Position numbers and translations under genes: made by a program
Source of the DNA: Lepidurus packardi
Lineage: Eukaryota > Arthropoda > Branchiopoda > Notostraca > Triopsidae
DNA length: 64,000 nt
Assembly (NCBI GenBank): GCA_023053545.1
Contig: JAKZAN010000007.1
Span: 10,354,001-10,418,000, forward strand
Direction of reading: 5' to 3'
Notes under the pieces: generated by a model
What the model saw: only the letters and a program-made list of their open reading frames with translations
Told to the model about the DNA's origin: nothing
Databases searched by the model: none
Shown: piece by piece, positions 16,088-27,000 of the stretch
Numbering within the stretch: the stretch's first letter is position 1
Layout: every line of letters starts with the position of its first letter

Positions 16088-19000
16088 ATGAAGTGTATAT
16101 ACTTCTTTTTCCTCACTTTGGTGTTCGTTTTGGGAGTGGAAAGTTTTGTCGTCACTCGCCAATACGATGTTTGGATCTGCGACTTACAAATACGTAAGTA
16201 ACCTAGGAAGGCTTAAACGCGCCCTAAACTCGTTAGCTCTAAACAAAATTTAAATAAATTCAATAGGAATGACACATGATGGCCATAATCCATGTACGGA
16301 AGTAATAGCGATGCTTACAAACGAAGAGAGAATTGCAATTCAAAACCGGAAACGCCTGATTCTCTTCCCAAGTAAAACTAAATAAGAAAATAAATCAGAA
16401 ATAAATTCATGTTAATAATACCTTCTTTTCTTTATTTAGAAACTCGAGAAGCTATCGTAAACATATTTATGGGAATGTTTAACGTAGCGCGTGGACTCAT
16501 CGATCATTTGGCTCGTTTGGCAGTACAGATCACTCCGGAAGACCCACGAGGCACCCATGCTCGTTTTTGGCGCGAACTGGCGGCCATTCCGGCTTTTCTT
16601 TATGTCGTAGTGATATTCGTCATTGCCGCCATCCTAAAAACAATAGCTTTGCGCAAAGCAGAGCAATCTTGTTGCAAAGAAATGCTGTTGGATGCTATAT
16701 TCATTGCGTTAGCTATAGCTATTATTTACGGTAAGATTAAACGTTGAATTCTTTCTAATTTTATACAAAACTTAGTTGTTAATTAAAATTGATCTAACGA
16801 ATTTTTGAACTATTTCAATGGAATTTTGGATTTATTAAATTTATTCATTTGATTTAGCATTGATGGCCCTGATTCCACATGTGAAACAGCTAAACGAGAA
16901 ATATAAGTTGGCTGCCGTTTGCTTCGTTCTTCTCATTAGTTTAATACCCATGGTTAGTATATTTAAATATATTAAAATTAGCTAATTTTCTCCGAGTTTT
17001 TCATGATTTTATTTTAGTGTTCTTTGTAATCATCAACTAGGTGAGATGTTTGCTAGTTCTCTTCTGCCAGATGATTCTTACGACTTACTTAAGAAAATTA
17101 CTCTTCGCGGGTTTGACATTCGCGTTACTGGCCGGTCCAACGTACTCGGTACTTTGGAATGGATTAGAAATCTTCAAGTTCATTGCTTGTAACTCGATAA
17201 GTTTTGGCACTTTAATTGGAAACTTTTTATTGGCGTTACTACAGCCTCTCTTCCAGATTAAAGTTGATGTAAGGTGGATTTCTTTTCTTTTTTTTTTCTT
17301 TTTTTTTAGAATTTTCAATGTTAATGTTCATGATCCCCTAGAGCGATAGCACACTCAATGAAACTATGAATATGCTGGACACTTATTTAGCAGAAATTCT
17401 CAACTACACCAGAGAGCAATTCCCTTTGTTTGGGAAGTTTTGGGAAGAACAAGAGGTACATTGTTGGCTCTTTCGGATCATTCCTTATTTTTGGGCAACT
17501 TCCTTCATATTTCTGAATATCTCTTAATATTTCTGCAGAAAGTTCCATATTTCTGGAACATTCCGTAACAAATCTTTGAATTAATGCAACATTTGTTCAC
17601 ATTTCAGTAATACTTCCCCTATCTTTCTACAAGAGGAATATCTCTTAATATTTCTGCAGAAAGTTCCATATTTCTGGAACATTCCATAACAAATCTTTGT
17701 GCTAATGCAAAATTTGTTCACATTTCAGTAATAATTCCCCTATCTTTCTACAAGAGGAATATCTCTTAATATTTCTGCAGAAATTTACATATTTCTGGAA
17801 CATTCCGTAACAAATCTTTGTATTAATGCAACATTTGTTCACATTTCAGTAATACTTCCCTTATCTATCTACAAGAGGAATATCTCTTAATATTTCTGCA
17901 GAAATTTACATATTTCTGGAACATTCCGTAACAAATCTTTGTACTAATGCAAAATTTCTTCACATTTCAGTAATACTTCCCCTATCTTTCTACAAGAGGA
18001 ATATCTCTTAATATTTCTGCAGAAATTTACATATTTCTGGAACCATCCTTAACAAATCTTTGTACTAATACAAAATTTGTTCACATTTCAGTAATACTTC
18101 CCCTATCTTTCTACAAGAGGAATATCTCTTAATATTTCTGCAGAAAGTTCCATATTTCTGGAACATTCCGTAACAAATCTTTGTACTAATGCAAAATTTG
18201 TTCACAGTAATACTTTCAGTAATAGTTCTATCTTCTTAAGTTGCTTAATGTTTCTGCAGAAATTTCCATATTTCTTCAAATTCCTGGAATATTTCTTAAC
18301 ATATGTTTGAGTTACTGCAATATGTATTCACTTTTCTGTAATATCTCTTTATTGCTGCAAAATTTTCATATTTCTTCGTATTTCTGGGATATTTCTTCAA
18401 CAAATCTTTGTATTATTGCAGTATTTCTTTATATTTCTGTAATACTTGTTCATTCTTAACATTTCTCAATGTTTCTTCAGAAATTTCCACATTTCTTAGC
18501 ATATCTTCGTATTACTGCAATATATATCTTCATGTTTCTGTAAAACTTCTTCCTCCTTATGTTTTTAACATTTCTTAATGTTTCTTAATGTTTTTAACAA
18601 ATATTAATATTGCTAATTATACTTTATTAGCAATATTAATATTTGTTAAATATTCTGGGAATTCTTAACTTTTCTTATTTTATTTCAGGGAGAAATTTAC
18701 GAGACGAACGCTGCGGAAGCAATATCGAAAGTAAAAGCAGATTTAACCAATGCATGTCTCGGTAAGTTACTATTGACTTTTCTCTCTATTCTAACTTTGC
18801 CCAAAGTACTGGAATTAATTTCTTCATTCTAATACGTTAAGTTCTTTATTAGTTTCTTTAAATTAATTTTAAGTTTCTTTCATTAAAGTATTGCTTTACG
18901 CTTCAAACTGTAGAGTCTTACCAGGGCTTCACGAAGCAATGCTTGACTAGCGCTACAAACCTAAAAAACCAAAAATCAGCCTTAAACGTCTGTCGCTACG

Positions 19001-24006: not shown

Positions 24007-27000
24007 CTACAATCTTGTCGACTCGCTTGAATCGTTTCGAGAGTTTGCGGGCAGTATTTCTGACGGATGATCTAACGCTGAAATTGATTTCTCTTCTTCT
24101 TCCTCTATTTTCGCGTTCGCAGACTGTGGATAGCAAATTTGATATTGTTTTGACAGAAAACAACAAGCAGAAATGGTATTTCTTTTACCTTTTTAGCAAT
24201 ATCTTGCAGATACTCTGCAGAGGCTTTGCCGGTTTCCTGTACTAGACTGTACAACAGCCCATTTTTAATCTCGAGTAATTCCATGGGTTGACCGAATTCC
24301 TGGAAAATAGAAAAAAAATTACCAAAATAACATACATTTCCAATACATATTTTCAGCAATACTTGTAGAATTCCAGCGTCCAATACCATGATCCGATCCG
24401 AGTCTATGATGGTATTTAGTCTATGGGCAATAGTCAGAACGGTGCAGTCGACACATTTTTCCCGAATGGTTTGCTGGATGAACGCGTCAGTTCTAGATCG
24501 TTAAGTATGGTTTTATTTAAGGCAGAAATAGGCTGCTGGTACTCTTGCCTGTGGTCCACACTAGCTGTGGCTTCGTCCAGTACCAAAATTCGCGATTGCT
24601 TGAGCAACGCTCGAGCTAAACATATCAATTGACGTTGACCAACCGAGAAATTGGATCCGCCTTCAGATACTGGCATGTCCAAGCCTCCGGTATTACTGCC
24701 GGCCATTTCTTTCAACTTGACCTAGGGGCAGAAATAACTTGGCACTTACAACACTAAGTTTTGCAAAGACGAGGAGTCGATTACTTCTTCCAGCGCGTTC
24801 CAAAGAGCGTCGTCTTGGTAGTCGCCAAACGGATCCAGATTTCTTCGCAGGTTGCCGATAAACAGTACGGGATCTTGAGGGATGATAGAAATACTGGACC
24901 GCAGTCTAGCAAGCGGTATCAGCTTAGTATCAATACCGTCGATTGTAATTGTGCCTCCTGGCTCCGACATCCGGAAGAGCGCAGCAATAATCGAAGACTT
25001 ACCGGCACCCGTTCTGCCCACTACCCCTATCTTTGCCAGTATTACTGCTATTACATTTCTTAGCATTATTTCTTGCAGAAATGTTACTTTCTCTCTAGCT
25101 TCCAACTTAAAGCTCAGGTCTTTGAGGACTAGTGGTTCACTTTCATCGTAACGAAGAGTAACGTCACGGAATTCTATGACTCCTTTAGACGGCCAGCTTT
25201 CCGGTACTTGCAGATCTAAACATTTCTGCCTGTACTTGACTGTACTATTACTTCAATTTAAAACCTGAGGACTCTAAAGGCGCTTCTGCTGGTAGTCGAG
25301 TGTACTCTAAGAGACGCTCTACCGCGGTCATCATGTTCTCGACTTCGGCAGTTTGACGTACCGCCCTCTGGATCAGTAATCCGACGGTTAAGGACGAAGA
25401 AATGATCAAACCAGCTTCAGCTCCACTAAGAGCTACAAGCAGAAGTGAGTTACTAGTGGGTCCATCGTTTTAGCTTACAATCTTCGAGAGCCAGTACTCC
25501 GAAGGTAACAGACGCCAAGTAGATCAACCCGGCGCTTTCTAGCCACACCCCTAGCCAGCGGGAGGTACACAAGTACATGTACCAGGCGGCAGAATGGTCA
25601 TCCACATTGCTGTAGAACAAATCCCGGAAAATGGGTTCAACTCCGTGAGCACGGATAGTGGTCATGCCCACCATGGTCGTAGACAAGTGAGCAAATACTG
25701 GCGAACGTGCTAAAGTAAATGAAAAGATAAAAATTAAAAATTAAAAAAAAAAAAAAGATGAAAAGTAAATAGAAATGAACGCAGAAATGTACGTGCTAAA
25801 GTAAATGAAAAGATAAAAATTAAAAAAAAAAAAGATGAAAAGTAAATAGAAATGAACGCAGAAATGTACGTGCTAAAGTAAATGAAAAGATAAAAAAAAA
25901 AAAAAAAGATGAAAAGTAAATAGAAATGAACGCAGAAATGGGGGTTCAGTACTATTGCTTTCTACGCGTTTGATATCGCGAGCGGTTTCTAAGTAGAATT
26001 TCTGCAGCGCCATGAAAATTAGGCTGACGACCAGTATCGGCAGGAAGAGCCATTGGTTAATGATTCCGACGAGTATTACTGATCCCACTTGGGTAAGGCT
26101 TAACTAGAAGTAGTTTTCCGTATGATTCAGTTATGCAGTAATACATTTTTCATGTTTTTCTTACTCCCCAAGCTTCTTCAATGGTGAACGGCAGTAATTC
26201 ATCAGCAATACCCATGTCTTTCGTGAATCGGTTCAGAACACGACCTACGACAAACGAGTTTTTGAGTATTACTGATGGGGAGCGCAGAAATGTACTGGCT
26301 ACCGATAGAATTGGTATCAAAGAATCGAATCGAAGTTTGAATCAGCCGAGCAAACATAGTATCGTGCAATTTCTGCGAGGAGCGGATGCAGCAGATGAGT
26401 AAGAGGTACGTCCGCGCGAAGGTCAGCACGAAAGAAGATGCTATTAATATCGCGTAGACGTAGATTCCCTGGTTAGAATCATAGTACAGTTCTGCCGGTA
26501 TTACTGTGTCTGGTAAGAAGCCAGTACTCGAGTTGAGAGCCAGTACGATTCTTTGATTGGCCACTGCTTCTTCTGAATTCGTCCTAAAGCACTTAAATGG
26601 GGAAGAAATACTTTTTTTTTAAAAAAAGTACTGCGTAATTACCAGTAACTGAGCCAGTAATCCACTCCTGTGAATGATACTTGCGCCACAATGTTGATAA
26701 AGAGTATTAAAAATAGCACAAACAAGCTCGAGCCAGCTTTGAAATACGCGATATAGGTTTTTAAGGACACGTTGCCAGTAGTTATTGTTTCTTTGGAAAG
26801 CTCGGGTGCCGGTACCTGAAGAAATATTTCTTAATTTCTTCAAAATCATTTTTATTTTATTTCTTTATTGGCAAAAGAAGCTCCCTACTTGAGGTTTCTT
26901 GGCATCGATAGTACTAATAGAAGATCCCCTTGATAAAACGGAAGCTTTACGGGAATGGCTGACTGGGAACGATATATCGTCTTCTGGTACTTTCTCGTCG

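Follow-up and report, generated by a model that had tools for sequence, protein, structure and literature searches.

Short words that are over-represented in coding DNA on both strands are familiar from bacteria, with HIP1 and the DNA-uptake words as examples. Among eukaryotes, the meiotic pairing centres of Caenorhabditis consist of clustered sites for the ZIM/HIM-8 zinc fingers (PMC9908027), Tyba arrays, each about 20 kb long and set about 400 kb apart, form the repeat-based holocentromere units of Rhynchospora (PMC10954556), the zinc finger protein Kipferl reads GRGGN at Drosophila Rhino domains (PMC9531945), and Introners favour predicted nucleosome linkers (PMC9860276). In this work we describe a swarm of the word GCAG[A/T/C]AAT (GCAGHAAT; ATTDCTGC on the opposite strand) in a 64,000-nucleotide stretch of the Lepidurus packardi genome (C6:10354001-10418000, hereafter the window), where it stands on both strands, within exons, within introns and beyond the gene models. 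This swarm is one of many in the genome. Outside repeats the sites of pooled segments favour distances of about 160 bp, and genome-wide pair counts agree; their strand is random. In duplicated copies, taken together, the word changes more slowly than its flanks. We lean towards reading the words as predicted binding sites of a sequence-specific chromatin protein, at about one site per nucleosome.

Each of the four eukaryotic systems is alike in part and differs in other features. The pairing centres share a clustered short motif over chromosomal zones, and contigs C5 and C6 each have a zone near a contig end; they differ in that some contigs here have several zones, the word stands in exons and the preferred spacing is near 160 bp. 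The Rhynchospora units share the presence of many blocks of similar size (estimated here), whereas the Lepidurus blocks are largely unrelated DNA with a recurring word rather than a tandem-repeat unit, and are zoned rather than even. The Kipferl and Rhino domains offer the precedent of a chromatin protein whose reading of a short word can contribute to the nucleation of a domain; the word, the spacing and the exon content differ. Introners share a tie to introns and may share one to nucleosome linkers; here there is no common element sequence, and sites lie in exons too. The bacterial words are similarly over-represented in coding DNA on both strands, but are not in blocks and have no nucleosome-like spacing. 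Searches of the literature for the motif strings as whole words returned no occurrence, a result of little weight because sequence strings seldom appear in print in that form.

A recurrent word in the window and across the genome

In the whole window we counted 43 copies of ATTTCTGC. Twenty-four of these lie between 18,261 and 26,500, against 0.32 expected from the rate in window bases 1-10,000 and 35,001-64,000, and these 39 kb of window ends contain four GCAG[ACT]AAT sites. A first-pass annotation, made from the letters of the window alone, had put the expectation at about 0.3 per 9 kb, in agreement with this value. All 22 half-sites that it listed exist, each within 2 bp of the start given, and its palindromes are present at 22602 (ATTTCTGCAGAAAT), at 17530 (TTTCTGCAGAAA, which has seven further window positions) and at 19300 and 22454 (TTACTGCAGAAAT). 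It had also placed the limit of the swarm near 26.5 kb, inside the ABCC gene; that edge holds, but the sites are not confined to the block, as others lie at 10,409-12,130 and 31,964-34,406. The sites and the features that carry them are as follows.

17390..26376, either strand: main block of GCAG[ACT]AAT sites, spanning two DCST-like genes (plus strand) and, on the minus strand, an ABCC4-like gene in its 3' half.
10409..12130, no strand assigned: outlying group of seven sites, inside a single open frame of 1,031 codons at 9781-12873 (minus strand).
31964..34406, no strand assigned: three stray ATTTCTGC sites, 3' of the main block.
22602..22615, palindromic: full palindrome ATTTCTGCAGAAAT, in FLQK codons of a DCST-like exon.
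17515..18206, plus strand: intronic tandem array of a 121-bp unit, 5.7 copies, every unit carrying TTTCTGCAGAAA.
25735..25940, no strand assigned: tandem array of a 77-bp unit, 2.7 copies, in an ABCC intron, the unit containing GCAGAAAT.
18691..20770, plus strand: DCST-like gene A, exons joining in a single open frame; name taken from the first-pass annotation.
21914..23143, plus strand: DCST-like gene B, exon stretches individually open and not joined as one frame; name from the same source.
24186..26600, minus strand: ABCC4-like gene, 3' half, whose ten exon stretches join in a single open frame.
25031..25087, minus strand: 57-bp intron adjoining the ABCC Walker A region, carrying ATTTCTGC and GCAGTAAT.

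The full palindrome ATTTCTGCAGAAAT also occurs inside the 121-bp array, at 17771, 17892 and 18013. The sites of the outlying group are at 10409, 10562, 10714, 10844, 11495, 12003 and 12123, with first gaps of 153, 152 and 130 bp. Tandem arrays of another kind, with related units of about 60 bp (AAGGCGATTTTGCTATGCTTA), occur several times across about 8 kb at 43858-51481, and words akin to these units are found at 37497-38071 and 59697-60176.

Genome-wide (108.56 Mb in 344 contigs), ATTTCTGC occurs 8,711 times (4,299 + 4,412) compared with 3,314 (1,584 + 1,730) for the reversed word, and ATTTCTGCAGAAAT occurs 59 times compared with one for its reversed counterpart. By our arithmetic the first count amounts to about 0.7 copies per 9 kb, so the density in the window is local rather than general. 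Blocks are estimated, from positions among the matches listed, at about 10-30 kb, and many of them lie in zones of Mb scale, among them the final 1.8 Mb of C6. Within the first 1.31 Mb of C1, covered by 100 listed matches, 85 of 131 10-kb bins contain no plus-strand ATTTCTGC while one bin contains 12. Among the matches listed, 22 of the 25 20-kb loci on C6 (palindromes and pairs) fall beyond 8 Mb; C5 has eight of 20 loci in its first Mb and ten between 5 and 6 Mb; C1 has several zones; and the loci of C3 are scattered. A pairing centre of the Caenorhabditis type is one region per chromosome, which is not the arrangement of these listed matches on C5, C1 or C3.

Among COX1-like matches, noted on C1, C2, C4, C5 and C6, 38 of 41 contain stops, some possibly mitochondrial Trp codons. 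A nuclear copy of mitochondrial COX1 gives a sensible reading when AGA is translated as Ser, ATA as Met and TGA as Trp. The matches listed on C4, C5 and C6 sit toward the end opposite most motif loci (on C5, opposite one of the two zones). Three COX1-like long open frames without stops, on the small contigs C43, C52 and C214, are probably bacterial sequence in the assembly.

Clusters were fetched from six contigs of 10.7-14.0 Mb each. Of 20 loci (L005-L024), 13 were picked for ATTTCTGCAGAAAT and seven were drawn from C1, out of the first 100 ATTTCTGC matches listed there. The cluster set of 18 segments comprised 17 of these loci and the window block 17,001-26,600, with L007, L010 and L019 excluded for having few sites or being short. 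Controls were six 5-kb pieces at round coordinates together with the 39 kb of window ends, so that neither set includes the outlying window sites at 10-12 and 32-34 kb. Because loci were chosen by the full palindrome or by ATTTCTGC listing, densities in the cluster set are inflated.

The enrichment profile over the 18 segments reads [Ga][Cat]AG[ATc]AAT, followed by A, T or G. In the clusters, exact GCAGAAAT reached 41x the base-composition expectation and the position-5 variants 21x (T) and 14x (C), compared with at most 2.4x for single changes in AG and at most 5.4x for those in AAT. The same segments are also enriched for a second family of words, CCRGTAC (15 of 18 segments for CCAGTAC and 12 of 18 for CCGGTAC), the positions of which are weakly related to those of GCAGHAAT. 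Region-specific words as a general habit of the genome were rejected, in that at the six control loci, a small sample, no word above the listing threshold exceeded five copies. A small-RNA promoter was rejected as well: clusters of the nematode type I piRNA (Ruby) motif have a fixed base at a set distance downstream, and no fixed downstream base was found in a scan of positions -40 to +49, in which there were only weak biases beyond the word, for example A at -15 and +14 and T at +17.

Spacing and conservation of the sites

We measured GCAGHAAT pair distances in the 18 segments, with arrays and duplications masked, and compared them with jittered sites. Distances peaked at 140-160 bp (z 6.2; 64 pairs, where jittered sites gave 29) and dipped at 40-80 and at 200-220 bp. 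A second, weaker peak lay at 300-320 bp (z 2.0), and the best Fourier period was 160-162.5 bp. With 20 segments, none of 500 jittered sets reached the observed statistic, and z stayed at 4.2 to 6.4 whichever single segment was left out. Random anagram patterns, about 60 in number, gave z from -3.7 to 2.2, a weak control since each had at most 33 sites. Genome-wide pair counts, which are independent of the choice of segments, had the same preference. For GCAGTAAT and GCAGAAAT in the same orientation, 59 merged loci fell at 140-170 bp compared with 24 at 52-82 and 34 at 208-238 bp (raw counts 87, 30 and 37); for GCAGTAAT and ATTTCTGC in opposite orientation, there were 51 loci at 140-170 and 35 at 208-238 bp (raw 81 and 55). 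Merging into loci drops tight arrays, though not all repeats, and reversed-pattern controls gave 0 to 3 raw matches per search. Strand was random, in that 82 pairs 120-185 bp apart were on the same strand and 87 on opposite strands.

A period of this size raises the possibility of a decayed or scattered satellite, with the words left over from tandem arrays of period near 150 bp, such as the 121-bp array of the window. Thirteen arrays do carry the word, and their period is 140-172 bp in 7 of 13 cases, compared with 5 of 28 for arrays without it, as if such periods were favoured by the same demand; several clusters contain arrays of this kind. We compared the stretches between phased sites with shuffled ones in six of the 20 segments. 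Similarity scores were like those of shuffled stretches in L015 (15.6 vs 15.4), L016 (15.7 vs 15.5) and L017 (15.2 vs 15.0), were higher in L013 (17.5 vs 15.5) and L006 (16.3 vs 13.9), where the stretches are thus partly similar, and were slightly higher in the window (14.8 vs 14.3). The random strand and the unrelated DNA between sites in L015, L016 and L017 speak against a satellite origin: outside the arrays these segments have neither head-to-tail similarity nor the tandem-repeat unit of a Rhynchospora-type holocentromere. Sites also lie in coding exons, and words that miss at the AG core are not in excess. We regard the satellite explanation as quite improbable.

Conservation was examined in 165 alignments of duplicated segments at 75-97% identity, with 19 gapped cases set aside; the compared copies share members and are non-independent. 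Mismatches affected 103 of 3,472 positions in the word and 781 of 12,663 in its flanks, a ratio of 0.48 (bootstrap over locus pairs 0.26-0.67), compared with 0.98 for anagram words, and the word was retained more often than its anagrams in all seven identity bands. This constraint is compatible with selection and with drive alike.

Sites in exons and introns

The three gene models of the window contain 17 GCAG[ACT]AAT sites in 4,326 coding bases, whereas 1,000 synonymous shuffles averaged 1.9 and never exceeded 7, an excess of about 9x. These sites are at 19161, 19305, 20014, 20037 and 20260 in DCST-like gene A, at 22257, 22602, 22608, 22689, 22996 and 23014 in DCST-like gene B, and at 24692, 24981, 25222, 25998, 26191 and 26369 in the ABCC4-like gene, which has further sites in its short introns. 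The open frame at 9781-12873 has seven sites compared with 1.5 by synonymous shuffle (maximum 5 in 1000), and the non-coding, non-array part of the block has 20 in 3,435 bases. Splice-acceptor consensus, the explanation against which the first-pass annotation had asked that exonic sites be counted separately, thus fails to account for them. Its argument for a DNA-level cause is supported by the exonic excess, by the occurrence of sites on both strands, whether exonic, intronic or beyond the gene models, and by the slower change of the word in pooled duplicates.

One asymmetry favours an RNA-level signal, composed of intronic splice acceptors (TTTCTGCAG) and purine-rich exonic enhancers: sites in exons are mostly sense GCAGHAAT (12, with 6 antisense), and those in non-array introns are mostly antisense (11, with 5 sense). 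The tilt can also be taken for a filter that acts on a demand at the DNA level. The window ends hold other genes and yet have only the four sites noted above, and splicing gives no reason to expect sites near 160 bp apart on random strands. Of the explanations considered, an RNA-level signal is the one to which we give the least credence.

Among solved chains, the best match of the ABCC piece is ABCC4. Its initial model broke frame, and one donor was shifted by hand, giving a 33-bp intron. The introns removed measure 22, 33, 46, 56, 57, 58, 61, 63 and 243 bp; those at 24300-26302 are very short (22-63 bp, bar the one of 243 bp), and one is GC-AG. The 19 codons' worth of sequence in the intron at 25031..25087 is missing in the human ABCC4 chain. 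Pfam gave no match for the one exon tested from each DCST-like gene. Over 28 open frames from the window and the clusters, it found domains in 11 (ABC, ion-channel, 7tm_7, innexin, MAM and neurotransmitter-gated channel) and none in 17.

Sixteen of the modelled introns measure 100 bp or less, and 11 of them carry the word; one of the sixteen, at 22131-22204, is only a gap between open stretches. A short mobile element or Introner inserted into linkers, leaving words in short introns and exons, would fit this count and would agree with the linker preference of Introners cited above. Contexts are, however, unrelated outside the word, with 257 of 282 GCAGAAAT contexts in the cluster set non-redundant (a count over contexts, introns not having been compared as a set), so that near-identical introns are not indicated, and sites also lie beyond introns. 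The exonic site at 24981 falls inside an ungapped match to ABCC4; the other ABCC exonic sites presumably also lie in gap-free stretches relative to the human sequence. We hold the insertion of such an element to be highly doubtful. The first-pass annotation had proposed two causes, a cluster of protein-binding sites and repeated insertion or copying from the intron array. The former, still putative, fits best, whereas the latter is not supported, in view of the same non-redundant contexts, the ungapped match at 24981 and the finding that 9 of the 17 fetched cluster loci have no word-carrying array.

A putative chromatin-binding word and its possible roles

A protein that binds about once per nucleosome would account jointly for the motif, its spacing, its random strand, its presence in exons and its constraint, and we judge this account to have a little better than an even chance of being correct. 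Such a protein would recognise GCAG[A/T/C]AAT singly or as the palindrome ATTDCTGCAGHAAT, and would need about one foothold for each nucleosome, with the linker as its simplest location, whereby blocks of about 10-30 kb would become a special chromatin domain. As the demand would lie on the DNA, sites of either orientation would be retained whether they fall in exons, in introns or beyond the gene models, in whatever form coding and splicing allow. The spacing near 160 bp is suggestive of nucleosomes, and the word is presumably bound by a protein. At the level of the chromosome the domain may, for example, nucleate heterochromatin, take part in meiotic pairing or act in the manner of a centromere.

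In addition to the inflated densities and the similar stretches of L013, L006 and the window, several observations weigh against this reading. By itself the window segment lacks clear phasing (pairs number 7 at 40-90, 12 at 130-180 and 13 at 200-250 bp), the pooled spacing signal rises once it is dropped, and L015, L016 and L017 supply much of that signal, while two later segments of 7 and 8 sites neither replicate nor contradict it. There is no clear helical-phase or base-composition signal around the sites. The repeats of the window itself show little conservation (word 36/560, flanks 135/1895), 318 of the 434 compared copies come from L012, L016 and the window and are largely repeat units, and in these copies it is the last T that changes most often (35/434), in contrast to the enrichment profile.

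Molecular drive without useful function is the rival that we take most seriously, although we consider it unlikely. A word-carrying allele would be over-transmitted, for example by shielding its own chromatid from meiotic breaks, so that this chromatid becomes the gene-conversion donor. Words would then accumulate in the linkers of break-prone blocks regardless of gene, strand or frame. Drive would cover the exonic sites, both strands, the block edge inside a gene, the slower change and the concentration in zones without host selection, and a linker phasing would fit because breaks fall in open DNA. A point against it is that it, too, requires a protein that reads the word.

A protein binding about once per nucleosome would have practical consequences. 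Word swarms in exons can be misread as coding or splicing signals, and the palindrome could be used as bait for finding the putative protein. A bolder extension, which we view as speculative and rather improbable, is that several Mb-scale zones carry a nucleosome-by-nucleosome binding lattice in unique DNA, exons included, that defines a centromere-like or pairing structure without a repeat. If the predicted binding is real, a chromatin protein would impose its word at about nucleosome spacing on ordinary genes, bending coding sequence to a chromosomal need, and a chromatin domain could be encoded in single-copy DNA.

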